64,000 nt of DNA, from contig JAJEKV010000022.1 of assembly GCA_021234155.1 (NCBI GenBank), positions 9,364,934 through 9,428,933 of the forward strand, given 5' to 3'. The notes beneath the pieces are model-generated. The model was not told the origin of the DNA. It saw only the letters and a program-made list of their open reading frames with translations, and made no database searches. The position numbers were made by a program, and so were the translations under genes. Positions 7,960 through 49,200 of the stretch are shown here, one piece after another (the first letter of the stretch is position 1; every line of letters begins with the position of its first letter). The DNA is from Isoetes taiwanensis (Eukaryota > Streptophyta > Lycopodiopsida > Isoetales > Isoetaceae).

Positions 7960-8275
7960 AGATCAACCCTTAGAAGTTGAGTAAATGATGAGGAAACATA
8001 TGCTATATATCAGCAATACTAAGATGCCACTTGTAAGAGATGATGCTTCTTATCAACCTAAGCCCCAAGATGCAACTTGTATGCATTAAAGTGCTTTACT
8101 TCCATCATTCATGATCAACTCCCCTCGAACCATTTGAAAAAACTTCTTGGATAGGCACATGGCCATGCAAGCGACGGCCTTGCTATCCTTTTGCTTTCAA
8201 AACAAAAGATTCTTCTGCTGATCAACATCATCATGCTTGGTAACAATCGCTTGCATTCACTGCCTTCCATAATTT
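7960..8275. repeat. Dispersed repeat, partner of 4830-5150
   Basis: Same block order as at 4830-5150. Here it ends just before the truncated left edge of the LINE. Confidence 0.6.
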
Positions 8276-8375
8276 TCCATTTAAATTCAACATTGGACTT
8301 CTTAATAATAAGAGTTTCATTGAAGAATTTAAAGTTTTCTTTGCAACTCTAGCTCCTGTCAGCAGAACAGAATCT

Positions 8376-11315
8376 ATGAAGGTATTTTTACAAAAAATGA
8401 AGATAATCAAATCTTGGATCAAGAAGTGGGGCAAAGATTGGGCAATGAAGAAAAGAAAAGAAAAGCAGGAATTATATGGGCAAATGAGGGAGGTCAGAGG
8501 TAAATTGTTCCTAGATAAAGCTAATCACATGCTACAGCAGTTAGAGGAGGATCTTGAAAGAAAAGTTAAATTGGTTGAGGAGAATGAAGCAAAATCTCTA
8601 GCAGTCAAAAGTAGGAGTAAATATATCAATGAGATGGACAAAGGGAATTCAGCCTTCCTTTTTGGGACTGCTAAAAGCAGAATGGTCAACAATGGAATTG
8701 TACAGGTCAAAACTATTTCAGGAAATGTGATAGAAAAACAACAGGAAATAGAGGACTTCTTTCATGGTGAATATAGTAAGATCTTCAGTGAAGTTATAGC
8801 ACAGCAGGATGATGTGGAAAAATTCTTTCAAGATATACCATTGAATCCCCAAGTAAATCAAGATGAAGACCTGTTGAAGGAGCCAGATGAAAAAGAAATA
8901 TTGGAAACAATTAGGTCAATGGCAAAAGGCAAAAGCCCGGGACCAGATGGTTTTCAACCAGAATTCTATGAGGAGTTTTGGGATATTTTCAAGGATGATC
9001 TTATAAATTTCTTGCAAGGGGCTTGGAAGGCAAAGAAATTGAACCCTGCCATTAATGCTGGACATATCACTCTAATTCCAAAGGTAGGTAACCCATTGCA
9101 GATTGGGGACTGGAGACCAATCTCCCTAACAAATGCAACTTACAAAATATTAGCCAAAATCCTTGCAAACAGGCTGAAACGTACCTTACATAATCTTATT
9201 AGCCCCTGTCAAACTGCATTCTTGCAACAGAGGAATATTTTGGAGAATCACATTGGTGCATCAGAGGGATTACACTGGAATGAGATGTCTGGCCAGAAAT
9301 GTATGTTACTTAAGTTGGATTTTCAAAGAGCTTATGATACAATTAATTGGCAATTTTTGGAAAGAGCTATGAAACATTTGGGTTTTCAAGATGAGGTCTA
9401 CCAAAAAATCTGGAGTTTTAACTCTATAGCTTCATCAGCCTTGATAATTAATGGGAGTCCAACTAAGCAATTCCAATGTAGGAGGGGAGTAAGACAAGGG
9501 TGTCCTTTAGCCCCTTATTTGTTCCTAGTTGTTGCTGAAATTGTCACCATAATGGTTATCAATCTTCAAAAGCAAGGTAAAATAAAAACATTGGAGATGC
9601 CTGAGGATCAAGAACCTTTTACTATTATGCAGTATGCTGATGATACATTTGTTTTTCTTAAATATGGAGATGAGAGCTTGGAAAATTTTCTGAATGCAAT
9701 TGAGGAATTTGGAAAGGTCTCAGGATTCAGACTGAACAGGAAAAAAAGTGCAATCATTTTGGATACCACGGATCAGGTCTTACAGGATATTAAGATTCTG
9801 GATAAGAATACTTCAATTTCCATTCTAGGTATTCCTTTAGCTTTAAACAAAAACCTTGCTGGAGTATGGGAGCCAATTGTTTCCAGAATTAAGCAGAAAC
9901 TTAACAAGTATCCTGCTACTTTGTCTTTGGCTGGCAGAGTTGAAATTGCAAATGCAGTCATCAGTAGTACACATATTTATTTCTCTTCAGCTATTATTGG
10001 AGATAAATGTTCATACAACAAAATTGAGTCTGCTATTAGGAAATTCATCTGGCAGGGTAATCATAAAGTGGCTTGGTCAGATCTAATAAAGGACAAAAAG
10101 AATGGTGGATTAGGATGCAAGGATCTTTTTCTTCAAGCACAGGCTTTGGCTGCTAAATTAGTGTGGAGGTCTATTTACTGTACAAAACCATCTCCTGCAC
10201 TGAAGTTAATCAAATTTTGGATTGAAAAATCTCAAATTGTTGGCAGTCCCACTATCAAACATCAACTTCCTGACTCAGCTTTTTTCAAGATTAAACCAAC
10301 TGCAGGTACATCTAAAACTATGAAAAGGATCTTGGAAGCTTGGAATGAGGCAAGTCTTTGTTACAAACCTCCCTTTATAGATGCAAATTGTCAGGAAGTC
10401 CATATGTTTTGGCATCCAGATCTTGCTACAGAAGAGGAAGGATGCTTAGCCTTCAAACATCCACAGAAATACATGCAATGGCACAATGCTGGTATCAGAA
10501 AGTTTGAAGACTTAAGAGAAGGAAACAGATGGAAAACTTGGGAAGAGGTGGCAGTAATTACAAAGGGATCTCAGGTGGATAAGGAAATTTATAAAAAGAT
10601 AATGCTGAAAGTATCTTCAATAGATGAGTTCAGTGATAACTCTAATCAATGAACTTTAAATGGAAAAGAGGTGTACTGAGTTAAGGATGTTTACAGATTA
10701 ATCATAGGTTACAAAGATTCTAAGGCTAACAGTATGTGGAATTGTGATGAGAAGACACTGGCCAAGATTATTGCAAAGGGTTGGAAAATGTATACAACTA
10801 ATAAAATAAAAACCTTCAGATGGTTACTGCTACATCAGAGCTTACCAACAAATGAGAAAAGGGCCAAATATGATACATTAGTTTCACCTATGTGTCCCCT
10901 GGGTTGTGGTCAAACAGAAAGTTCAAATCATGTCTTCACATGTCACAAGATTGCAGACTTCTGGAGCTGGGCAGCACAGATAAATCAGGGAGCAATTACA
11001 GCTAATAACTTCCTTTCTTTTATGAATGCCAATACTCAAATCCTGAATACTACTAGAATTCTAAGTTCTTGGATCCTCTGGAAACATAGAAATAGGGTCC
11101 AAATGGGAAACAAGAATCCTTCCTTATTCTGGATTAAAAAGGAGTTCATTTATCTTATGACAAAGACAGCCGTGGCACACAAATTGGCAAAAGGAAAAAG
11201 TTATGATAGATCATGGGAGAAATTTGGTACATTTCAGGGATATTTTGATTTCTACCTTACTAATCTTAATGTATTTGATGATGTATTGCACAGGAGAAAT
11301 GAAGAGACTGAATAG
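8376..11315 (+). mobile_element. L1-like LINE, ORF2 with reverse transcriptase; two nonsense codons
   Basis: 5'-truncated non-LTR retrotransposon. The frame from 8376 shows RT blocks in order: GKSPGPDGFQPEFY, ITLIPKVGNP with DWRPISLTN, LKLDFQRAYDTINW, GVRQGCPLAPYLF, and the catalytic QYADDTFVF near 9631. After a TGA at 10650 and another TGA at 10677 the same frame continues from 10734 into the zinc-binding C-terminal domain (CPLGCGQTESSNHVFTC). Only those two stops break about 2.9 kb, so decay is recent or slight. No apurinic endonuclease is present, as expected for 5' truncation; an in-frame TAG lies just upstream. Neither a poly(A) tail nor target duplications were identified. Confidence 0.88.
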
Positions 11316-34040: not shown

Positions 34041-35117
34041 CTCCTGCAGTAGAATTTGATATGGGACTGTGGACTTCACCCCTAGTGCTCGTACTAAGAA
34101 GGCTTTCTGGACCTGCTCCAAGTCATTCCAAGTAGCAAGTGATACTACTGGGCCCCATACTTCCACCCCGTATAAAAGGACATGCTCCACGAAGATCTTG
34201 AACAGGTGTGACTGATGGGCCCAATCATACAACTCCGCTCTATGACTATTGTTTTGCATTGCATATAGTGCCTTCCAAATGCCCAGTCACTTTCGTGAGC
34301 CGTATGGATGTGTCCCAGTGCATAGTAGAAGGAAACTCCACTCCCAAATATTTGTATGTGGATGCAACTTCCACATTCGGCCTCGATGAATCGAAGGAGG
34401 GGACCCTCTACCGACGTGAAGATGATATGAAAACCACCTTAGTCTTGGCCAGGTGACGCCATATCGGGCCTTGGCGTAATGTGTCCGTGGCATCGAGATG
34501 TCGTTGCATGTCTGCTGGTGTGTAAGCTAGGAGGTCCACATCATCGGCATATATTAATTGTCCGATGATCCGATAAAGAAGGTGAGCTCCATCGCCCCAT
34601 TATCGGCAAGCCAGCTCTCCAATTGATCAATGTAAAGCCCAAACAATGTTGGCATCCCCCGACGAACCCCTATACTACTATCAAATGGTTGGCTTTGTCC
34701 GTTGCAACCGAATTCCGAGCATCTTTCATATAGCTTTCGTATTAATCGCGATTACGCAAATCTCCAGAACCCCCGGCTTTGCGGTCTTGCCCATAGTTTT
34801 TCCCGAGGCACGATTGTCAAACGCCGCCAAAAATCCACAAAGCAACAATATAGATCCCGGCGGTTCCCGCTATCTTCAATCGAGTTCGCAAGCGTGAAGA
34901 TGTGGTCAATGGTTGAGTGCTCGGTCCAATCCCGCTTTTGGGGGGGCCCGCCTCTCTTCCTCTGCCCGACCAGCAAACCGCCGCCGAGAATCCCAAAGAA
35001 GGTTTTGCAAAACACCGAACCCGACCATGATTGTTCGATATTGGCGGTCAAGGCGGTGTGGGTCACCTGCCTTATAGATGGGAACAACTCTGCTATTGGT
35101 CCACTGCAGCGGGAAGC
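34041..35117 (-). mobile_element. LINE-B, reverse transcriptase segment
   Basis: Read right to left: PLQWTNSRVVPIYKAGDP, STIDHIFTLANSIED, LYCCFVDF (A motif, then a frame break), VPREKLWARPQS, IYADDVDLLAYTPADMQRH (catalytic YADD near 34540), VASTYKYLGVEF and LLYGVEVWGPVVS, ending ILLQE at the element A junction. Several frameshifts make it a pseudogene. The right edge at 35117 is the gypsy insertion point. Confidence 0.85.
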
Positions 35118-36706
35118 TGTGACGTTCCAAGTATTTATACGGTATACGTATAAATATATTGACACGTCACCCAGTATAGATACGCCACTATGGGGTATAG
35201 TAACCTAGGGGGTTGACCTAATAGGGATTAAATTATCATTAAGGATAATAACCTATAATTAAGGAATTAATATTTAAGAAGGATAATTAAGTTAATTATG
35301 GTTTAGGAAGGCGCCACCTGGCCAAACTCGATTGGCCAGCATGGTGAATACTAATTGGATCCATTAAGGTGGATCACCACCCCCATATCAACCAAAATCG
35401 AACCAGTTGAGCGCCCAAGGAGCAGTTGAGCGCCCAAGGACTGTTGCTGACTTCACCAAAATCACTGAACAACCACTAGCTGTTGTTGCCACCCTACTTA
35501 TAGCCCTATGGAAGCACCCCACGATAACAGTTCCAGCCGAAACACGGGTTAGTAATAGTTTAACTTGTGATTGTAGGATAGTACTTCAGTACTCTCTTTT
35601 CTGATTGCTTTTGTTGAGATTAACCCTTCTCTGGTAAGTAGGATTACATTTCAATTATGAATGGTGCTCTGATAAGGAATGCTTGATGTATCTATGAAGT
35701 ATTTCGGTAGCTTCCACTAAACAAGGGTTTAAAGGGGGGGTAGAGACCTCTGAGCTCATATATGATAGTATGCTCCTAGATAGAGCCCCGTAATATGCCC
35801 ATTTGATGCGGCTGCGTACAAGAGACCCACCGGGTCGTAGACGCTATGGTCCGGCTTAGCACCGAGAGAAGGGACGCAGTGGTGAAGTGGGGAGGGTCTT
35901 GCACGAACATAAAAGGCTCCTGAGACTCCTACAGTGGGCTAGACGATGGCAGGTCCACGTAGGGGCGGGTATGGGTCCGACACTCCCCGGGTGTAGAGGT
36001 GTGATCCGTATGGAGCATCTTGCACTTTGAGTAGATTTAGGGTGAGTAAGTTGGGTGCGGATGGTCGGGGGTGTGATGCGGCACGTATTCTCTAGCTCAC
36101 CCATGGAACCACAGTGTGATCCTGGAAGGGGACGCTTCCCTCGACACCCTCATCCGGACCAGGGCGTCATGAACCCCGAGTAGGCTCAAAAGGGTGATAC
36201 CTTGAGTCTCAAGTCTCCCAAGGCTATAGCGGCCATAGCGTGGATCGACCCATCCGCAAAGTGTGCACAATGTGGGGGCGGATGGAGTGGACAACCCTAG
36301 CCGATGTTCTATGCCGCCCAACGCCCGGTTATACCTCATGTCTCACGATCTCCCCGAGATCGAAGCCGTCAGTCCATCCTCACAGGAGTCTGAACCGGGG
36401 TAGAACTTGGGGATTGGGTGTTTTCTTAGGTTTAGATGCATATTCTGTGCCGTTGGTATCTGGATGGATGCGCCACCCTTCGTGGTGGTTATTTATATAT
36501 GATTTATGCCGTGTGCTAACCCTTGTATTCATGCTTCCACGGCGTAGGCCCATCGGCGTGGGCGTGGGCCGAATGACACCTCCGTGTCCTTCACTCGAGC
36601 CTCTCTACGTAGATGGCCCGGGTCAGACGGAGGGCCCTGCCCATGGCGAGATGGATTGCCACGGGAGGGGAAAGTCCCCGTATATATACGGCCGGGGGTC
36701 GTCACA
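35118..36706 (+). repeat. Element B 5' LTR
   Basis: Starts TGTGACGTTCC, ends GGTCGTCACA. It is 1589 bp. Open frames inside (such as 35407-35604) recur in the other LTR and are not genes. Confidence 0.9.
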
Positions 36707-37473
36707 GTGGTATTGCTCGAAATCATAGCACTGACCAAACACTAACTCGTTAGTTCGGTAGTTAGGAGGAGGCTAATCTAGTGTGTTGTTTAGTCCTCTT
36801 TGATGTTTGGTTTTGTGTTAGGTTAAAGTAAGAAATTGTAGATTTAAAGAAGTTAGGGCGACTGGAGGCCCCAAGTTTGGAGGGGTTATAAATTTTTGTA
36901 GGTAGTTCAAATGAAGGAGAAAGTGGTTCCATTGGATCGGGCGTACCCCAATTACCCTAGGACAGTCGTCGCTGGCGAAAAAATGGTCAAGGGAAGGCCC
37001 GAAAGTCAACTCGGGCGCCGCTTGATTTTTGTCGCCTTTACGGTCCATGGGGGAGAGCCTAAAATCTTTGTCGGCCCGGACCGTACCGTCATGAGAGTCA
37101 ACCCGGGCCGAAGTCAACCCGGCTTGCTTTTCGTCGACCCGGTCGCCGGTGTGGGAGCGCGCAGAATGCCGCGTCGGCCGACCAGATTTTTTTCCGCGTA
37201 TTCCCCGCCGTATAAACAATTTTTTCTATACAATAAAAAAATAAAAAGTTAATAAGAAAAAAATTTAAACTTTAAAAGTTAGCCAACCGTTGAAGTTAGT
37301 ACCCCCGCCTTGCCTTCAGCGCCTCCGCCCGCCGAAACCGACGCCCGCCATCGCCGCCGGACCTGACCTTGCTTCTTCGCCCTAGTTCTTCGCTAACCCT
37401 AGCGCCTTCCATATCGCTCCCCTAGCCGCAAGCGCCTACCGCCTGTTCTTCTAGACCTCAGCGCCATAAGCCA
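36707..37473 (+). other. Element B leader
   Basis: GTGGTATTGCTCG directly after the LTR is where a primer site should be. It keeps TGGTAT of the initiator-tRNA type and then diverges. The rest is leader with no supported gene; 37300-37450 is C-rich. Confidence 0.5.
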
Positions 37474-38672
37474 TGGCCAACACCAAGAGTACTGCACATG
37501 GCTACTGACCCGGCCTTCATCGACATACTTCTGGACGAGTTGGTAAACCGCTTCGAGAACAATGATAGGATTCCCTATCCTATCTACCATTTCTCGGAGC
37601 CGTTTCTGATCCGATTGAACCTCCGCCAGCTTCCTTACACCATGGCCGAGCAACCTGACTTGGTCATGATGCTAATAAAGTTTTATCCTCCCGAATATGA
37701 AGGCCACACCGAGGAGGAGGACATACGGAAGGAGGCCGACCGTATCAGAAACTTGGCCAGGGAAGATGACCAAAGGGAGATAGAGCGAGCTGATACGGTG
37801 GCTCGAGGTAGAAAATACCGGTATCTCGGAGATGGAGTTGCCGTTATAGATGGCAGGGCCATCGAGATTCCCCCATACCGATGGGATGAGGATTCTACGC
37901 CTTCATATGGGGAGATCCCCGAGCACGATAGATTACTTAATAACGATTCAGATAGACATGGCCCAATGGGTCTCGACGGCATTCATACCGAGCTCCTCCA
38001 CGCCAATGTTGTAGAGCCGCAAGACAGGTTGAAGAAGACCTCCTGAGAGCCAGGAGTTCCCGGAAGAGCGGGAGAGGATCCAAAGGGAAAAGAAGAGAAG
38101 GCCCCAGAGCAATTACCAAATAGGCGGGGGATCGTGGAGGGCAGGGGCCCAACCCCAACAGAGCATACGACCAGAAGCACCGGAGGAAGTCCGGGGCCCG
38201 AAGTCCCAAGTCAATACAAGGGAAAAGCCGAGGGACCGGCTTCGGCTTTTGGGAAGAATCACGAAGCTCAATGGGAGGTTGGAGCGGGGTGGATGCGTCC
38301 CGACCCCGGTCGTTGGGGCCAAGACGTACACTGCACAAAGGGGCGGCGTCCCAACCCTCGCTCCACAGAGGAAACCCCACCGTACCGACCCGCAGATTGT
38401 CAGCCTTACGGGGAGATCCGTAAGTTTCAGAAGTCCACCCAACTTCTGATACGGAAGCTCCCCTTCCAGAGGTTGGTTCGGGAGATTGCCCAGGAGTTCA
38501 AAACCGACCTCCGCTTCCAGACTTTTGCCATCTTGGCACTCCAAGAGGCTGCGGAGGCTTATCTGGTGGCACTCTTTGGTGGCGCCAATCTTTCGCCGAT
38601 CCACGCAAGAGGGTCACCATAATGCCTAAGGATTTAGCCCTCGCCCGCAGGATTCGGGGGGAGCATCCTTAG
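37474..38672 (+). pseudogene. Cargo ORF 1 ending in a histone H3 fold, inside the gypsy element
   Basis: The frame from 37498 runs to a TGA at 38044 and continues in the same frame to 38604. From about 38410 it is unmistakably histone H3: [54 protein letters not shown]. After a one-base deletion near 38606 comes [19 protein letters not shown] and TAG at 38672. H3 packs with H4 in nucleosomes. The loop 1 spacing is canonical, not lengthened as in many CENH3s. Tail-like pieces lie upstream: MANTKSTA at 37474 and TTRSTGGS near 38170, compared with the usual start and the A-R-K-S-T-G-G site. They are separated by about 640 bp of sequence I do not recognise. This copy is disabled by one stop and one frameshift. 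The H3 identity is firm; the tail assignment is tentative. Confidence 0.85.
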
Positions 38673-38717
38673 CACATTTTTGCAGGGGTTTCACATTGTA
38701 AATATTTTTTGATATTT

Positions 38718-38737
38718 AATAAAAAAAAAAAAAAAAA
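38718..38737 (+). other. Polyadenylation signal and A run after the H3 sequence
   Basis: AATAAA merges into 17 consecutive A residues about 50 bp after the H3 stop. In an LTR element interior this is best explained as the tail of a captured, polyadenylated mRNA. Confidence 0.6.
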
Positions 38738-38885
38738 CTTTTTATTTTGCATTAAGAACCTTTTACTTTGTATTAAGTACGAAAATGCTGACATCAGCAT
38801 AAATAAAAGGGGTTAAAAAGGATCTTCAAAGTTTCATTTCATTTGTTATATCTGTTTTTCTTCCTTCCTCCTCCCTTCCAGCGCC

Positions 38886-40264
38886 ATGGCAGCCACCGAC
38901 CTACTTACATGGTACCAAGACGGAGAGCATTGGGATCCGCAAGTGCCCTTCGACCTGTTGCGCCCCTTGCTATGTCAGCGCCTTGATCTCATCATTAATA
39001 TGCAGCGGCACCCAGACTATGCCGGATTCCTGGAGTTTTACACAGAGGAGATGCTTCCTTTGTGTATTCCTCTTGGGGATCCTCCCCAGTTGTATCTAGA
39101 ACGGGAGGTGATCCGGGATATGTTAGGGGGTGACACCCATGCGTATGATGTGCTGAAAGGGAAGCTTAGATGGGGCAAGCACCTACAGGGCGACAATATC
39201 TTGAAGTTGCCTTCGCCCTAGCCATCCTCATGGATCAATGTGTTGAGGATGAGACTTTGCCTGCAGAGAAAGGCAAACTTCCTGAATCTTCCGAGGAGGG
39301 GGAAGACGAACATATAGGCATGGGTGACTTTGCCCGTTGGAAGCAGTTGGCAGAGGAGATGCCACCACGCCGGGAACAAGCTGCATGCTTGTCAGGGCTA
39401 GACGCCCTTCCAGTTGTGTATCACCAAGGGCAAGAATATCTTCTCTTGGATGATATCATCTGGACCTATCACATGGTGGCCGGATTTAAGCGCCGGCGTA
39501 AGGACCATGTACTCTATGAGCTAGCGGAGTACTGTATGGATGATTTTATCGACTTCGCTCCTATTGAGCTTCCTCCGGAGGTGCAGCAGTTACTCCAGTT
39601 CCACCAGGAGACCTTAGAGCTAGCTGAGACTTTGCTACGGCTTCGGGAGCTGGTGATGCAAGATCCGCCCTCTCAGCCTTCACCGGATGCCTTTACGGCT
39701 ATGGGACCTCATGTCCCAAATATTAACATGATCGAGGTTCCCTCCGGTTCGGATGAGGAGGGAGAGGATCTATACCATAATCCTGCGCATTTGAAGGTAG
39801 AGCAGCAGGAACTTAAGGAAGAAAAAGTCCCTATGGACTTAGAGGTGGCCACGTCAGAGACCCCGCAAGGGAAGGTATTGGGAAACCACCTTACTCGCTT
39901 CTTCTTATCAGCTTTTCGACAGGGGCAAGTTCTTTTTATAGCCCGAGACTTAGGGCCGGAGGCCGAAGCTTCATGGTGGACCCTCCATGCTCTTTCCACA
40001 TTGGCCGGGCACAAGAAGCTTCCCTATCGTACATTTACTTATGTACTCGTACGACGGGATCTTGCCCTGACGGCCTTGGGACAAGACATTGCACCCTGGA
40101 TGAGCATGAAGCTCCTTACGGCAGCCCCATTGGCTGTTGCCTATCCGCCAGAGGTTGCCTCCATTGCGGCTGCCACAGTAGACCCAGGGGTGACTCTGCT
40201 ACGACACCGACCGCCGCCGCCACCTCCTCGGCCTATGGATGAAGAGGGGGGACCTAGCTCTTAG
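38886..40264 (+). CDS. Cargo ORF 2 of the gypsy element, unrecognised
   Basis: ATG at 38886 in a strong context (GCGCCATGGC). The frame runs to 39221 and, after a frame change near 39180-39210, from there to TAG at 40264, for about 455 residues. It is acidic, with SSEEGEDEHIG and GSDEEGEDLY, and ends in a proline run. RPLLCQRLDLIINM near the start loosely parallels EPFLIRLNLRQLPY in cargo ORF 1, hinting at related modules. No domain recognised; not gag, which follows at 41210. Confidence 0.5.
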
Positions 40265-40460
40265 ATAATTGTATTACGCATTTTGTATTGCGTATAATTG
40301 TATAATTTTTGGTTTGGCATTCTCTTTGGCCATTCTATAGTTATGATATACCATCTTCTTATCAATTGTGACTATTGTATCAATGAATACAATTAAAATT
40401 GTTCTCTTCCATGATGCGTTCTTCTACCTATTGGAGTTTAGGGTATAACGAAATTGTTCA

Positions 40461-40949
40461 ATGTTCTATATTCATTTCTATCGTCTTGCAGAAGAGACAC
40501 TCGAAGAATATGAAGAGAGAATTACCGACCTGATAAGGAGGGATGATCCAGGGCCGCCTGACCAGGACTATGGCCAAAGGTATGGGGAGTACCCGGAATG
40601 GGACGAAGGTTACGAGATAGAACCCGCACCACCAGGGGAGCCCTATGATCCAGCCAAGGGGATGGAGATAGTCAACATTCTCAGGGAACGGGCCTTCGAG
40701 GATCTGAAGCAAACTCTTCGCCGCACATGGGACTATTAGGACATGTCAAGGCACGAAGCTTTCGAGGATACCAACGACCACCTGTGGCAAATCTTCTATG
40801 CATTAAGGAGGCTTTTTAATCTCCTTATTATTAGCCCAACGCTAGATTACCAATCTGTTATAGTCCAGGCCTGGGCACGATACAAGCTCGTTAGGGCTGT
40901 ACGTGAGAGTGTTCGCTATTCAATCTTGTACCCATTTGCGAACCCCTAG
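40461..40949 (+). CDS. Cargo ORF 3, short acidic and basic frames
   Basis: Two consecutive frames. 40461-40739 is rich in E, D, P and Y (YGEYPEWDEGYEIEP). 40743-40949 is basic and hydrophobic (ALRRLFNLLIISP). A gap of 3 bp separates them. Not recognised. They could be the remains of one protein or non-coding leader. Confidence 0.35.
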
Positions 40950-41209
40950 GCCCGGTCCCTGAAGTTTTTGTTCTTTTGATGTTATATGTGAGTTGAACTT
41001 TAAATGTCCAATGTATAATACCTGTCCTTGTATTATGTCTTTGTATTAACTTCTGTCACTACCAATGTACTGAATCTTAATGTAATGAATGTTTTCACCT
41101 GTTATAAGGATCTTTGCCATTGTACTCTTTCTTGTATTCTTTATCTAACTTATCCAAAATGGCATTTTTGTGAGACCTTATGTCACCATAAGTCGGCTTA
41201 TATCTTTTT

Positions 41210-42513
41210 ATGCTGGATATAGACGGTGAACGTAACGCCGCCTGGCAGACACCCTCAAATGCCAGTAGACTAACACCTGAACAGGAACTTATCTTAATGA
41301 AGAGACAACTAGGCGAGTTACAAGCTTATGTGTTGCACGCCAATCCACCACAGCACATACAAGAAGACGGACCGGAGTTACCTCCGTTACCCCCAAGTCC
41401 ACCTCCACAACAGCCAGCTGTACCTGAGACCAGCCCTGTACCTGCACAGAGGAGGCCCCATTCTAAATGTCGTCGGAGTTCCTCTAGGGATAGTGCCACC
41501 TCCTCACAATCAGCCACTTCTGTGTCTTCTGAGTCGTCGGTATCAGCTGGTGACCATGCAAAGCGCCGGGATAAGGAATACCGCAAGACGGTTGATACAG
41601 CCATAACTAGTATATGGAAGAATAGGAAATTGGCCCAGTTTGATGGGAAATCTAGAGGCGGACTGAATGCAGAGTCCTGGTTGGACGAAATGAAGGAGTT
41701 TGGGAAGTCCTATGGCATGACGAAAAAGGATACGAGAAAGGTTGCCACCACAAACCTTCACAGAGCTGCACATATTTGGTGGAAGGGTTATGCGAGCCAA
41801 GCATCCGGATGTAAGCGAGTGCAAGTTCAAAAAGTTTGCCAAAGCTTTTAAGTCGCGCATTATGTGCCTCGTGCGCACAAATGCCAACAAATTCAGACCT
41901 TCTACAGGTTAGAGCGTATGGGTATGTCGGTTCAGGCGCATTAATCGATGAATTTATGCGCTTAAGGCTGTATGTACCCGGTATGAATGAAAAGAGGGCG
42001 GTGGAGGGCTACATTGAAGGGTTGGCCCCATCAATTAAACGAATGGTTAAGGCCATAGACCCGAAATCAGTTGCAGAGGCTGAGGCTAAGGCATTGAGCC
42101 TCAAGAGGACACACCAAGGAACCAAATCCATCCGCCCCGCCCCTTACTCGCAGCCACCCCATCCACACACCTTACAAAACCCCGGCCAAGTCCGGGGCCC
42201 TCTCAGCAGAACTCTTATGGCCGCCAAGAGAATAGCTCCTCCAAGAATTCCATCCATCTCCTCTGACGGAGAACAGCTCCGCCGAGATAAGGCATGCTAC
42301 AGGTGTATGCGGCCCGGGCACTTTATGCAGAATTGTCCTTATGTCACGCAGACTGCCCAGCTAGCCATGGCCGACCTCGATTGGAACGATCTTGAGTCAA
42401 CATTACCTGTCGAGGAGGAGGCTCCCGAGTACATTCACGGTGCGTCTCATATCCTTGCAGCTATAGAAACCGCAACGGCCCGAAAGTCGACCTCTTTGTC
42501 ATTTCCACCATAG
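41210..42513 (+). pseudogene. Element B gag
   Basis: The capsid-like segment LAQFDGKSRGGLNAESWLDE and WWKGYA lies in the first frame (41210-41851). The remainder, from 41836, includes YVPGMNEKRAVEGYIEGL and the zinc knuckle CYRCMRPGHFMQNC near 42298. A proline/serine-rich N-terminus precedes it. The frame changes at least twice near 41800-41880, so no intact Gag is made. Gag forms the virus-like particle and its knuckle binds element RNA. Confidence 0.85.
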
Positions 42514-42845
42514 GTCACGTGGACAAGTAAGCCTTTTGTAATTCTTATGGATACCGGAAGTACACATAATTTTGCTTCTCCTAGAATGGCCCAGTCTTAC
42601 ACAACCGAAACCTTGAGGTCCCGGCCAGAGGCCTGTCACTCTAGCCGATGGTAAGGTCAGACATACTCATGGCCATCGCATCAATCTCAAGATGTAGTTG
42701 CCAGGTGCACCAGTTGCTTTGGGTGCCGAGTTAATGGATATTGGCAAATACGACCTCATTGTTGGTATGGAATTCTTGGCATCTGCAAAAGCCAACATAG
42801 ACTGCGAAAACGGAAGTTACCTTCAACGCAGACTAACGGGCCAGC
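42514..42845 (+). pseudogene. Element B aspartic protease
   Basis: FVILMDTGSTHNFASP near 42537-42590 is the active-site D-T-G motif. Downstream the frame is broken several times before pol begins. Confidence 0.75.
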
Positions 42846-45461
42846 GTGACTATAAAAGGTGAACCATTCAACCCTATTATCCAGTCTATGTCCATCAGGC
42901 AGTTAGATAAAGCTATACGCAAGGAAAAGCTCCTCTGCGTCATTAGACTTGCCTCCATTGAGTCAGATGCTAAGCAGAAGCAAGTAATCGATACCTTGCC
43001 AGAGGGGATTGCTAATCTTCGCCGAGAATTTGGTGATCTTTTTCCAGATGAGATCCAGAAGCTTCCTCCTTTCAGAGGGGTCGAATGTGAGATAGCTTTA
43101 GAGCCCGGTACTAAGCCTACCAGCAAGGCCCCATACCGTATGAGTCCTCCAGAGCTGGCAGAACTTAAGAAGCAACTTCAGGAGTTACTAAACCTAGGTT
43201 TCATTCGACCTAGTGTTTCACCCTTTGGCGCTCCTATTCTTTTTGTTAAGAAAAAGGACGGCTTGAGGATGTGTATTGATTATCGGCAACTCAACAAGCA
43301 TACCATCAAGAATCGCTATGCTTTGCCTAGAGCAGATGATCTAATGGATCAGTTGCAAGGGGCTAAGTATTTCTCAAAGATTGATCTACGCTCCGGATAC
43401 CATCAGATAAGGATTAAAGAGGAGGACATCCATAAATCTGCTTTTCGCACTAGATATGGGCATTATGAGTTTACCGTTATGCCTTTTGGATTAACTAATG
43501 CCCCGGCAACTTTCATGCGATTGATGAATGATGTCTTCCGACAATACTTGGATGATTTTGTTGTTATTTTCTTTGACGACATTCTCATCTATAGTAAGAC
43601 CCTAGAGGATCTTAGATTGGCCCTACAAAAGCTAAGACGTCATCAGCTCTTTGCCAAGTTCTCAAAGTGCAAGTTTGCCACTCCGAAGGTCGATTATTTG
43701 GGCCATGTCATTTTGGCAGACGGAATTGCTACAGATCCGGCAAAGATAGAGGCCGTAAGGGAATGGCCTATTCCAGGAAATGTTTCCGAAGTCCGCAGTT
43801 TCTTGGGATTAGCAGGGTATTATCGGAAATTTGTAAAGGATTTTGCAAAGATTGCGGCACCTCTTACAAATCTTACAAAGCATGAGAAAGTGAAGGATTG
43901 GATGGAACACTGGAAGGCAAAAGTTCAGGGGAGTTTCCAACAGCTTAAAGATGCCTTAACGTCAGCACCAGTTCTTACATTGCCCGATCCTAAGAAGGAT
44001 AAACTAGTGGCAACGGATGCCAGTAAGTTTGCCACTGGTGGAGTCCTAATGCAGGAGGGGAGGGTGATTGCCTATGATTCAAAGAAAATGAACGAGACGA
44101 AGCAGCGATACCCTACCCATGATCAGGAATTGTTAGCCGTTGTCCGTGCCCTGCGGATATGGAGACACTACCTTCTTGGTAGAAGATTTCAGTTACATAT
44201 GGATCATCAAAGCCTCCGTTATTTATCCACCCAGCCGAATCTCAACCTCCGTCAGAGGAGATGGATGGAATTCTTGGAGGAGTATCATTTTGAGATTATG
44301 TATAAACCTGGAAAGCACAATGTCGTTGCGGATGCGTTGTCACGCCATCCCTTGGTAATCCGAACCCATTGTAATGCAATTTCTACACTCACGAGTGAGT
44401 TTGGGAAGCAGATAGAACAGACCTTGGCCACAGATTCCGAGTTCCGTGATGTTTGGGATAGTTTGGCTAAGGAAGCTCGCACAGATAAGGAGCGGGAAGC
44501 CTTTCGTTCGTATAAGAAAGAGGGCAACTTGTTATATTACAAAGATAAGTTGTGTGTGCCTGAGACTTCAGGAGTACGTAAGCTCATTCTCCATGACACA
44601 CACAACAGCCCTATAGCTGGACACGCAGGTTTTATGAAGACCTACTTTAAGATTCGCTCCAGCTATTTCTGGCCTTCTATGAAGAAGGACATTGCCCGGT
44701 ACATTAAGCAGTGTCAGGTGTGTCAGCAAACCAAAGCTGAGCAGTTAAGGATTCCAGGCGAGTTACAACCTCTGGATGTGCCCAATGCCAAATGGGAAGT
44801 GATAACCATGGATTTCATTGTGGGCCTTCCACGTACTCTCCGTGGATATGATGCGATAATGGTAGTGGTCGACAAATTGTCAAAAATGGCTCATTTCTTG
44901 CCATGTCGTACCACGGACACAGCTTTCGATACTGCTCTGCTATTTGCCAAGGAGATCTTTAGATTACACGGAATGCCACGAGTTATTATATCCGATAGGG
45001 ATCCCAAATTCGTAAGTGCATTCTGGAGAGATTTCTTTGCCACCATCCAGACCAAGCTTGCTATGAGTACGGCATATCATCCTCAAACAGATGGTCAGAC
45101 AGAGCGCACCAATCGCATTATAGAGGATATGCTACGAAGTTATGTGTGGAGTAAGCAATCACAATGGGCTGACTATATCTATCTGGTCGAGTTTGCCTAC
45201 AACAGCATGAAACAGGAGTCTTACAGAATGTCTCCCTTTATGATAAATTATGGCTACCAATGCCTTACTCCAGACACATGGCATAACCCCGTTTCTAAAG
45301 TGGAGGTTTCTCAACAACTCCTCTTGGAGACGCAAGCTCTGGTCGAAGAAGTTCGGGGTTACTTGTTAGCAGCACGCAGTCGTCAGAAGAGTGTAGCCGA
45401 TAAGCACAGAACCCCACGCGTTTCCAGGTGGGGGAATCAGTTTGGCTTAAGATTAAGGTAA
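42846..45461 (+). CDS. Element B Pol: reverse transcriptase, RNase H, integrase
   Basis: One open frame of 871 codons. The RT (about residues 60-270) has [26 protein letters not shown] and catalytic FFDDILIYS near residue 243; the usual Y-x-D-D is F-F-D-D here. RNase H follows ([14 protein letters not shown] near 387; ADALSR). The integrase has an HHCC finger ([15 protein letters not shown]...CQVCQQTK) and the D, D, E residues in [17 protein letters not shown] and TDGQTERTN. It is the best-preserved part of the element. A frameshift near 45425 separates it from the integrase tail. Confidence 0.95.
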
Positions 45462-45918
45462 AACAAGCCAAGCTTAAGATTGGCAACTGCAAGAAGTTGG
45501 CACCCAGATGGGCTGGACCGTTCAAAATTATTGAGCGTGTTGGAGAGCAGGCATATCGCTTGGATTTGCCGCCCCGCTTGAAGATCCACAAGGTCTTTCA
45601 CGTGAGTCTTCTGAAACAACACACCCCTGATCCAGAGGAGGTTTTGGATACCCCAACCCTCCTAGAAATGACATAGGAGCAGCTGGAGATAGTGCCTGAA
45701 GCTCTTCGAGATCGGGCTTATAAACAAACCAGAAGGACTCTAAGTGGAAGCACTTACCAGTTGAGGATGCTACTTGGGTGATGAAGATAGACCTTGACAA
45801 GCACTATCCGGACTTCATGCGGGAATCGCAAGGCCGCACCATCAACGATGCTATCAACCCTGAAGCCGGCGGTAAGCTTAGAAGCTTGATTGCCAAGAGT
45901 AGCGCTCTAGAGGGGTAG
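45428..45918 (+). pseudogene. Element B integrase C-terminus with chromodomain-like tail
   Basis: Continues Pol after the frame change: [27 protein letters not shown] (GPY/F module) and KIHKVFHVSLLKQH. After a TAG at 45674 and further shifts come ALRDRAYKQTRRT and HLPVEDATWV, matching the end of a retroelement chromodomain, then a stop at 45916. Chromodomains in chromoviruses direct integration to marked chromatin. Confidence 0.75.
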
Positions 45919-46482
45919 ATGCATCGTAAATATAATAGTTACCGATGATGAGATCACTTTTGTGTTCTCTAGGACGTGGTGTACTGTCAATGTTGACCTG
46001 ACCACGCCTTCCTTGAAGAGCAGGCTACGTTCGTCCCGGCTATAATGGGAACTTGACCATTCCCTATGCCGCAATGAATTGCGAACCATAGACATGATAG
46101 GTTCCCTGCTAAATAGGATTTTTCTTTTCGTTACTATGGGGGTGGTCCCTTCAACCACAATCTAATTATATATACTGATATACTAACATGTGCAGGCCAG
46201 TGAGCAGTACGTGACCTGCCCATGTTAGAGGGTTGCTGATGGCCCGATTTCTTCAGTTTATTTTGTCTGCACGTCTTGTTTTGTTATTACTCGGATGTTG
46301 GTATTGGACTTAGGTCCTTAAACTTTTTTATTATGATAATCATGTGAACTGCACCTCGGTGCTTAAACTGTTTTAAACTTTAAACTTCGGAAATAAGAAA
46401 TTATCTTCCTTCATAATGTGATTTCCTATATTTGTATCTAACCCCAATGTTGAGGACAGCATTAAGTCTAAGGAGGGGAGAA
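45919..46482 (+). other. Element B 3' untranslated region and polypurine tract
   Basis: No gene. AAGGAGGGGAGAA at 46470-46482 abuts the right LTR and is the plus-strand primer. Confidence 0.75.
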
Positions 46483-48080
46483 TGTAACGTTCCAAGCATT
46501 TATACGGTATACGTATAAATATATTGACACGTCACCCAGTATAGATACGCCACTATGGGGTATAGTAACCTATGGGGTTGACCTAATAGGGATTAAATTA
46601 GCTATGCTAATGTAATCATTAAGGATAATAACCTATAATTAAGGAATTAATATTTAAGAAGGATAATTAAGTTAATTATGGTTTAGGAAGCCACCACCAA
46701 AACTCGATTACAAATGGTGGTGAATACTAATTGGATCCATTAAGGTGGATCACCACCCCCATATCAACCAAAATCGAACCAGTTGAGCGCCCAAGGAGCA
46801 GTTGAGCGCCCAAGGACTGTTGCTGACTTCACCAAAATCACTGAACAACCACTAGCTGTTGCTGCCACCCTACTTACAGCCCTATGGAAGCACCCCACGA
46901 TAACGGTTCCAGCCGAAACACGGGTTAGTAGTAGTTTAACTTGTGATTGTAGGATAGTACTTCAGTACTCTCTTTTCTGATTGCTTTTGTTGAGATTAAC
47001 CCTTCTCTAGTAAGTAGGATTACATTTCAATTATGAATGGTGCTCTGATAAGGAATGATTGATGTATCTATGAAGTATTTCGGTAGCTTCCATTAAACAG
47101 GGGTTTAAAGGGGGGGTAGAGACCTCTGAGCTCATATATGATAGTATGCTCCTAGATAGAGCCCCGTAATATGCCCATTTGATGCGGCCTGTGTACAAGA
47201 GACCACCGGGTCGTAGACGCTATGGTCTGGCTTAGCACCAGAGAAGGGACGCAGTGGTGAAGTGGGGGAGGGGTCTTGCACGAACATAAAAGGCTCCTGA
47301 GACTCCTACAAAGGGCTAGGCCCGATAGCCTGGCCACGTGAGGGCGGGTATGGGTCCCACACTCCACGGGTGTAGAGGTGTGATCCGTATGGAGCATCTT
47401 GCACTTTGAGTAGATTTAGGTGAGTAAGTTGGAGTACGGATGTGGGGGTCGCTGATGCGCACGTATTCTCTAGCTCACCCATGGAACCATCGTGGATCCC
47501 GGAAGGGGACGCCCTCGACCGCCTTCATCCGGACCGGGCCATGAACCCCGGAGTAGGCTCAAAAGGGTGATACCTTGAGTCTGTGTCTTCTAAGGCTATA
47601 GCGAAGCCATAGCGTGGATCGACCCATCTGCAAAGTGTGCACAGGAGGGGCGGATGGAGTGGACAACCCTAGCCGATGTTCTATGCCAGCCAACGCCAGG
47701 TTATACCTCTGTCTGCTGATCTCCTGAGACCGAGCCGTCAGTCCATCCTCACAGGAGTCTGAACCGGGGTAGAACCTGGGGATTGGGTGTTTTCTTAGGT
47801 TTAGATGTATATTCTGTGCCGTTGGTATCCGATGGATCGCCACCCTTCGTGGTGGTTATTTATATATGATTTATCTTTGTGTGCTAACCCTTGTATTCAT
47901 GCTTCAAGCGACGTAGGCTTCATCGGCGTGGGCGAATGACACCTCCGTGTCCTTCACTTTCGAGCCTCTCGTAGATGGCCCGGTCGGGGCGGAGGGCCCC
48001 GCCCATGGCGAGATGGATTGCCACGGGGGGAAAGTCCCCGTATATATACGGTAGGGGTCGATATATATTCGAGGCGCCAC
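46483..48080 (+). repeat. Element B 3' LTR
   Basis: Starts TGTAACGTTCC. It is close to the left LTR for the first 700 bp, then shows many small indels and substitutions. Its end (about 48054-48080) is altered relative to GGTCGTCACA, with an extra ATATATATTCGAGG. GAAGC follows. Confidence 0.87.
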
Positions 48081-49200
48081 GAAGCCTTCTGTAATGCCTT
48101 GTTGAACAATCAGACCGGTATTATGGACGGCCCCCCCCTTAAGCAATTACCCAGTATACCATCCAAGTCCAGGGCTTTCCCATTGGCAAGACGCTTTGTA
48201 GCCTTGTTCCACGTCCAAATCTGTGATTTCCAGCACTTGGCCTTCTTGCAAGGGTAATGCTGCATGTGCACCCTGAGGGTCGTATAGCTGTTGCAAGTAT
48301 TGCCTCCACTGCTCGGGAGTGATATTCCCTGTGGGCTGTACTGGCTTTCTAAGAACCCTTTGCCAGAAGGTCCTGGGGTGACGTTCCTGGGGTGATGCGC
48401 TGCAATGTACCTTGCTTTCTTAGCTTTAAGGAAGATGCGGTACTGTCTGACTGCATGTGGGCGTAAAGCAGGGTCTATGACTTGGCAGAGCCAGCGTTTG
48501 TGTTCCTTGCATCAAACCATTGATTACGTGGGAAGGTTGTGTTCCTAGAGGTCCGTCCCGGGCGGCTTATCCCAAAGCACCTCTCTGGCGCAGTCCTAAG
48601 CACACCAATCAGCCGGCCTGTCTGTTGCTCTAGTGTAGGATATTACAAAATTTCTGCCATGTCATCTATAAGCATCTGGGCATAAGCCCCTGCATGTTCA
48701 TAATCCAATCGCAGCTGAGGCATGTGAGGAGTTGTTGTACCGGGGGTTCGCACAACCTGCCAAGCCAACTTCAAGTAAAGTGGTAAGTGGTCTGAGTCGA
48801 TCTCTTCATCCTTATTAGCTATTCCCACCTGAAAGTGCTTGACGACATGCATATCCTGCTCAGGCACCAGCACATAGTCCACCACACTAGATCTGCCCCC
48901 CTAGTTTTCCTGCCTACAAGTGCTCTTGCGGGTGGAAGGCCACTGTGACAGTCCATTGCAGATTACCAGGTCAAAGATACTGCAGAGCAAAAGCAACTGT
49001 CGACCATAGCGCGTGACCTGATTGTCATCTGATGTCCGTGGCCAAGCTCCTTCTGCAGGACGCAACTGCAATATATCATCAGTCAAGGGATCAAATCTCA
49101 TGGGTTGTTCTACCCCGGTACGCGCATTGAAGTCTCCAAGGAGTATGACACTGCCCAACTGCTTATGCTGTTGTATGACCAAGGCCTTGGTCAGCAAATG
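48081..49200 (-). mobile_element. LINE-B, endonuclease and RT N-terminal segment
   Basis: Read right to left: SVILLGDFNARTGV (APE endonuclease metal/active-site block), VDYVLVPEQDMHVVKHFQVG and SDHLPLYLKL (the end of the endonuclease with its catalytic D-H), then RLANGKALDLDGI and LFNKALQ, the RT start, up to the gypsy junction. Frameshifts occur between blocks. The 5' end beyond about 49250 is missing. Confidence 0.85.

Follow-up and report, generated by a model that had tools for sequence, protein, structure and literature searches.

Can a core histone become a lasting part of a plant retrotransposon, and what would the element gain from it? This question is raised by the stretch of DNA analysed here (the window), 64,000 nt of Isoetes taiwanensis (assembly GCA_021234155.1, contig JAJEKV010000022.1, positions 9,364,934-9,428,933 of the forward strand). 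The window contains a single LTR retrotransposon, about 13 kb long (35118-48080), in which the first long open reading frame 3' of the left LTR, designated ORF-A, ends at its C-terminus in a histone H3 fold, with gag and pol following downstream.

The element is flanked by a 5 bp target duplication GAAGC, identified by eye (35113-35117 and 48081-48085). The left LTR (TG...CA; 35118-36706, plus strand, as all features of the element given below) and the right LTR (46483-48080) were delimited by alignment of the LTR pair, the end of the left one being set by eye against the LTR end of copy L013 and that of the right one also by eye; their alignment covers 1534 bases and contains 62 mismatches (40 transitions and 22 transversions; K2P 0.042). 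A degenerate primer binding site, TGGTATTGCTCG, was read from the sequence at 36708-36719; its counterpart in copy L013 is TGGTATCAGAGC, and we take it to be an initiator-Met tRNA site. The polypurine tract (46470-46482) is a motif common to copies L009 and L013. Gag with a zinc knuckle (41192-42513) is divided between two frames in the window copy and gives weak Pfam matches there, while copy L058 gives stronger ones (Ty3_capsid 1.3e-16, Retrotrans_gag 7.4e-16). Pol (42837-45461) includes reverse transcriptase, RNase H, and integrase according to Pfam, and the integrase C-terminus with the chromodomain (45442-45919) was recognised by reading in a broken frame, the corresponding region of L058 matching Chromo (4.1e-8, above cutoff) and SH3_Tf2-1 (2.3e-22). 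The order gag, protease, reverse transcriptase, RNase H, integrase was found in both the window and L058. Because of the LTRs, gag, pol, and the chromodomain after integrase (in L058, and in the window as a region with a broken frame), the element is a Ty3/gypsy chromovirus. Ogre elements have an ORF before gag, and membership in the Tat/Ogre group of non-chromovirus elements, which lack a chromodomain, was considered and is ruled out by the chromodomain (L058). Among the matches listed the named pol relatives were nearly all plant proteins, for example entries labelled PITA (presumably Pinus taeda) with 50-54% identity. A perfect 36-bp inverted match between gag (42236-42271) and pol (44247-44282) was also observed in the window, in one copy, and is perhaps a template-switch patch.

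ORF-A occupies positions 37473-38672 and in its unbroken form is an in-frame fusion of three parts: an N-terminal domain of no known family (37473-37965), a charged, basic linker located where the H3 tail would be (37966-38371; both limits approximate), and the H3 core, which runs from KPHR to the stop codon TAG (38372-38672) and has a broken frame in the window. Between it and gag sit ORF-B (38886-40264; stop-to-stop frames of 483-492 aa in three copies) and ORF-C (40490-40949, limits approximate; frames of 165-166 aa in three copies), both of no known family: no Pfam family was found for either in the one copy scanned (L058), ORF-B gave no PDB relative, and no similarity of note was seen between ORF-A and ORF-B. 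The broken frame of the window matches Pfam Histone with an E value of 1.8e-20 and PDB H3 chains with 3.9e-29. In two other copies Pfam Histone was matched at 1.2e-40 and 1.7e-40 over 102-109 residues (the copy with 1.2e-40 is unbroken), the histone fold of H3 being present together with its alpha-N helix, and profile search found H3 chains at E 7.5e-57. Thus, the assignment of the preliminary description, an H3 fold in frame between the left LTR and gag of a Ty3/gypsy element, is confirmed in both respects, the fold by these matches inside one LTR pair and the element by its LTR pair, target duplication, gag, pol, and chromodomain; the start of the frame has to be moved from 37474 to 37473. 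The window copy had rightly been called broken, but "one stop, one frameshift" does not describe it, since alignment with an unbroken copy revealed 16 frame-changing indels and one in-frame indel.

The distribution of the H3 part was followed across the host genome (1,658,258,908 bases in 1110 contigs). The search with ORF-A DNA, H3 included, gave 1450 first-look candidates, of which the best 40 were scored, with 42 matches: the window itself, 34 copies that were fetched, and 7 partial matches, which fall at four places. Two listed pieces, taken together, extend to the end of H3 at three of the places; at the fourth (C1019) the match is confined to query positions 21-700 and does not cover H3. 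The match runs through H3 in all 34 fetched copies, but this count is not unbiased: H3 is part of the query, and scoring was restricted to the best of the 1450 candidates, so that decay may be more advanced in the whole family than in the copies scored here. One unbroken frame with both protein ends was present in 7 of the 34 (375-416 aa): six of them are 375-395 aa long counted from MATD, and L029 reaches 416 aa from an earlier ATG. The internal stretch is interrupted in several of these seven copies. Their LTR divergence (K2P) was 0.0248 in L013 and 0.0294 in L009 (partial LTR); the stretches fetched for the remaining five contained no recognisable LTR pair.

The search with pol provided a second view, with 7986 candidates and the best 40 scored, namely, the window and 39 others of 91-95% identity. 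By coordinates an ORF-A match lies about 3-5 kb from pol in the window and 7 others and 14-24 kb from it in 3, while 29 scored pol copies had no ORF-A match among the scored ones. Upstream DNA was examined for 20 of the 29 and contained H3 in 12, nine with the ORF-A form of the window (type I) and three with a divergent form (type II). The remaining eight stretches, without visible H3 (L066, L072, L073, L074, L075, L078, L081, and L082), have ORF-B truncated or not found, a foreign insert, or an offset, and say nothing either way; L082 contains the integrase end and chromodomain of another chromovirus. No clear H3-less element was found among the 20 stretches.

Two outcomes had been named in the preliminary description as speaking against H3 as a part of the element, its absence from all other copies and its arrival as a separate later insertion, and neither was seen. 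The former is answered by the 34 of 34 ORF-A-matched copies and 12 of 20 pol-upstream stretches that have H3. The latter, an independent insertion of a processed H3 copy into the window element, is suggested by the A17 homopolymer 3' of the H3 stop (38721-38737), but comparison of copies rules out this run as the poly(A) tail of a processed pseudogene: among the 30 copies with the end motif (window included), the longest A run after the stop has a length of 5 in 19 and of 4-18 in the others. Besides its presence in all 34 ORF-A-matched copies, H3 is fused in frame in the unbroken copies and is found in divergent forms of the element. Moreover, 14-15 of its 83 codons compared with plant H3 encode a different amino acid (the changes at 77 and 90 are also present in the H3 of this host), more than an insertion as young as the LTR K2P of 0.042 indicates could have gathered; such an insertion can be given practically no probability.

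The broken state of the window copy required that function be judged on its relatives, as the preliminary description had advised. In the Nei-Gojobori analysis (ratio of means) of 21 pairs of the seven unbroken copies, dN/dS was 0.078 for the N-terminal domain, 0.171 for the linker, and 0.072 for the H3 core, and in 595 pairs of all 35 copies, broken ones too (stop codons omitted), it was 0.078, 0.273, and 0.216, respectively. As a yardstick, pol gave 0.077-0.122 in three pairs (window, L013, and L039), and ORF-B and ORF-C gave 0.16-0.24 and 0.09-0.17 in three pairs each. Codon variants of the H3 core that differ by a single base were then counted by column, with stop codons, changes of more than one base, and gapped codons left out. 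Those present in at least 5 of the 35 copies were 23 synonymous and 0 nonsynonymous, those in 2-4 copies 21 and 14, and singletons 30 and 49, respectively; the shared (at least 5 copies) and singleton classes differ with a Fisher value of 1.6e-8, although the variants counted do not represent independent events. Under five mutation models, neutrality predicts that 70-75% of variants are nonsynonymous; singletons, with 62%, are at or slightly below this share (P 0.01-0.14), and the shared variants are far off it. As judged from these codon changes, the H3 core is under purifying selection, old changes within the family being filtered and recent changes after insertion hardly at all. Neutral simulation of the window copy alone gave P 0.02-0.09, which is only suggestive. 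At synonymous sites the seven unbroken copies have diverged less in the H3 core (0.23) than in the N-terminal domain of the same ORF (0.46), and this could come from recombination between types or from codon constraint.

LTR elements often carry dead fragments of host genes, and the badly broken window copy, together with the 27 of 34 fetched copies without one unbroken frame, would suit a captured H3 fragment that rides along without function. This explanation is nevertheless contradicted, barring a coding-independent cause acting on the codons, by dN/dS of 0.07 in unbroken copies, by the shared variants standing 23 synonymous to 0, and by the conservation of the protein across types with synonymous change saturated, and it is thus very improbable.

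The relation to host histones was studied with a canonical H3 protein query, which gave 9022 candidates. Among the best 150, which were scored, there were at least 15 host H3 genes, intronless and 96-98% identical over residues 1-136, and below a clear gap 135 non-host matches of 71-86% identity that start at residue 3-36 (median 25), some of them being copies already counted in the ORF-A and pol sets. Stop-free matches accounted for 129 of the 135, and 49 of these 129 have an open frame of at least 400 aa. A set of 19 non-host cores (7 type I, 3 type II, and 9 further ones) was compared with five host H3 genes taken from the 15 and proved to be 81-91% identical to the nearest of them. In the phylogeny with host genes, an analysis also suggested at the outset, the 19 cores form a single clade apart from the five host genes with ultrafast bootstrap support of 89 (protein) and 93 (DNA), and T107A and I124L occur in 19 of 19 cores and in none of the 5 host genes. 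E77 and L90 are present in all five fetched host genes, and type I shares both. On both trees the non-host clade adjoins the host gene L088 (T31, H87; H3.3-like), which matches the query over residues 1-136 unbroken, a placement on which no weight is put here; the five host genes do not form a clade of their own. The core is not of CENH3 type, with 53-57 of 98-99 residues identical to Arabidopsis CENH3 against 80-86 of 98-99 to plant H3.3. Since the non-host cores make up a single clade, one old capture of a host H3 is the simplest reading and probably the true one.

H3 is essential, and with at least 15 host copies 96-98% identical to the query it could be imagined that the H3 stretch serves as nucleotide camouflage, making small RNAs directed against the element dangerous to the H3 genes of the host. 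This proposal, extremely improbable here, is contradicted by saturation of synonymous sites between host and element cores (mean pS 0.89-0.96, compared with 0.69 among host genes), which leaves little DNA identity and places selection on the protein.

The type II copies (L065, L067, and L080) demonstrate how differently the parts of the element have changed. Against type I their N-terminal domain is 30-53% identical by stretch, the linker 31% (in the single copy with a match), and ORF-B 46-54%, while the H3 core remains about 85% identical, with pN of 0.10-0.13 and pS of 0.76-0.87. The backbone is close to that of type I, with 86-88% identity in the LTR and 80-81% in the leader (two of three copies) and 93-94% in pol DNA (all three). 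LTR, leader, and pol belong to the same family, so that the two types share a backbone on which ORF-A and ORF-B have diverged together, and this block difference between L065, L067, L080 and the window may reflect modular evolution or recombination. Three further ORF-A forms, whose N-terminal domains are 66%, 33%, and 30% identical to type I in the matched part, were recognised from short pieces of 9 of the 135 non-host matches and upstream pieces of 3 of the 9; these nine are H3-type matches, with the LTRs around them outside the comparison. All five ORF-A forms keep an H3 core 81-91% identical to host H3.

Type II cores also carry changes at conserved H3 positions, namely, R49W in two of three, L60P in all three, and changes at 102-105, which may weaken a nucleosome; the core of L065 contains a stop codon. 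Such substitutions, the long foreign N-terminal part, and weak Pfam matches to CENP-S/CENP-T, below the cutoff, agree with a repurposed fold that holds histone chaperones or H4 or pairs with another protein, as in TAF or CENP-T proteins. This is a possibility of rather low probability, because arginines 63, 72, 83, and 116, which we take to face DNA in H3, are kept in 18, 19, 19, and 18 of the 19 cores, and a pure dimer partner would not need them; the overall identity of 81-91% to host H3 also counts against it.

In contrast to the core, the canonical H3 tail with K4, K9, and K27 is missing from ORF-A. When the linker was compared with the H3 tail in six copies, it was no closer than shuffled sequences (P 0.10-0.41). 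The type I linker contains VARKSGSQYK in 6 of 7 unbroken copies, and its ARKS motif is found in most type I copies and is not kept in type II. A block resembling [RH]KSG.QY recurs across forms in the ORF-A linkers of L016, L098, and L099, which are otherwise unalike, related KSG-QY blocks being present in two ORF-A forms other than type I; the block may be a binding motif. An in-frame ATG 25 codons 5' of MATD, opening MANTKST or a variant of it, is present in 25 of 29 copies with MATD, window included (6 other copies gave no MATD match and were left out of the 29). As a lead for further work, MANTKST could be a relic of the H3 start; it is a type I start and is not kept in type II.

The N-terminal domain had no Pfam match above the cutoff, and the 331 candidates of a protein search with this region alone all fell short of E 1. 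In the search with the read-through ORF-A protein (5228 matches, 120 listed) the eight matches inspected hold at least two H3 units and no visible ORF-A part, and a search of viral contigs found none with ORF-A and none with pol. The fold predicted for the N-terminal domain without relatives had a mean pLDDT of 57 and was set aside.

According to these data the following reading is proposed, with a probability of about one half: a plant chromovirus lineage would, probably in a single event far back in time, have captured the coding sequence of a host H3, appended it to the C-terminal end of the element's ORF-A, and kept the product as a working protein that acts as a chromatin adaptor. The ORF-A protein would enter the nucleus, its conserved core would pair with host H4, and host H3 chaperones might build it into, or onto, nucleosomes, so that the N-terminal domain and basic linker would stand where K4, K9, and K27 of the host tail would be. 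In this way the element would plant its own adaptor in chromatin, the two likeliest uses being shielding of element chromatin from methylation or silencing and a landing site for the integrase complex. The ORF-A and ORF-B proteins are expected to act together, as they differ together between types on the shared backbone. Silencing marks are written on H3 tail lysines, and a more far-reaching version, to be taken as tentative, holds that the retrotransposon H3 variant replaces host H3 in nucleosomes and, lacking the tail lysines and bearing in their place an exchangeable domain specific to the element, writes a chromatin state or marks integration sites, while ORF-A/ORF-B types diversify under conflict with the host and the H3 core stays fixed. 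The roughly 320 residues before the core are unusual for a nucleosomal histone and count against the proposed reading, as do the core dN/dS of 0.216 over all 35 copies, the type II changes at conserved H3 positions, and the several ATGs in the leader.

The selection on the core would also fit an action within the particle or pre-integration complex, where the H3 part together with H4 would compact or import cDNA and no deposition in chromatin would take place. Among the long ORFs, ORF-A lies closest to the left LTR, and it has the ATG context GCCATGGCC in the window, for which reason it may be made in quantity; however, the leader before ORF-A contains 6 ATGs in the window and 7-12 in its last 760 bases in seven copies, so that translation of ORF-A is not straightforward. 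One core histone alone does not wrap DNA, and H4 would need a host source. Histones encoded by DNA viruses, described in excerpts of PMC9145170, lend this proposal some plausibility, and it is regarded as conceivable but unlikely.

The preliminary description knew of no core histone carried by a retroelement, and in agreement with this no LTR retrotransposon with a histone was found in a full-text search of open-licence PMC papers. The word "histone" does not occur in the main text of a review from 2026 on how plant transposable elements capture genes (PMC13317346) or in a review of additional ORFs (PMC7264820). H3 on transposable elements is known from fungal hAT DNA transposons, which according to excerpts of the respective reports carry H3-like (H3L) genes in Pyrenophora tritici-repentis, with ESTs reported (PMC3538342), and in Pseudocercospora fijiensis and relatives, where every copy except the original gene has been inactivated by RIP (PMC6710886). 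In both systems a captured host H3 is carried and multiplied by a transposable element; however, the fungal elements are DNA transposons with transposase and terminal inverted repeats, whereas the Isoetes element is a plant LTR retrotransposon with pol, which rules out membership in the hAT type, and its H3 forms part of a fusion with an element protein and shows long-term purifying selection.

Among viruses, excerpts of PMC9145170 describe the bracovirus CvBV-H4, a protein with an extended tail that becomes part of host nucleosomes, and singlet viral histones of H3 type, for which the same is considered likely. They resemble the Isoetes protein as captured core histones but are viral and represent H4 or stand-alone H3, in contrast to a retroelement H3 fused to a large domain; also comparable is nudivirus Orf1 from the same source, a long protein whose function is not known, with histone folds at its C-terminus. 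Among retrotransposons, the element shares LTRs, gag, pol, and the integrase chromodomain with plant chromoviruses as presented in excerpts of PMC6317226 and differs from them in that gag is preceded by three additional ORFs, of which the first carries the H3 fold. By eye its chromodomain lacks the first cage aromatic, as is described there for seed-plant chromoviruses. Orchid gypsy elements with a 2-ODD demethylase domain are also comparable, being plant Ty3/gypsy elements that fixed a host-type domain, although a different one, in an extra ORF, and no core histone domain is mentioned in the text section that deals with 121 screened angiosperm genomes (PMC9289625).

Silencing of retrotransposons works largely via marks on histone H3. 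The histone kept by this lineage suggests, from the pattern of its conservation, that the element may use H3 to act on host chromatin; if this is true, its own conserved H3, lacking the tail that receives the marks, would intervene directly in the silencing conflict and offer a natural tool for studying it. In excerpts of PMC6317226 the partner of type II chromodomains of plant chromoviruses is stated as not identified; the Isoetes element, which encodes a chromodomain as well as a histone, makes this question testable. Elsewhere in the window, at 8244-11315, long reading frames resembling LINE reverse transcriptase were recognised by eye.
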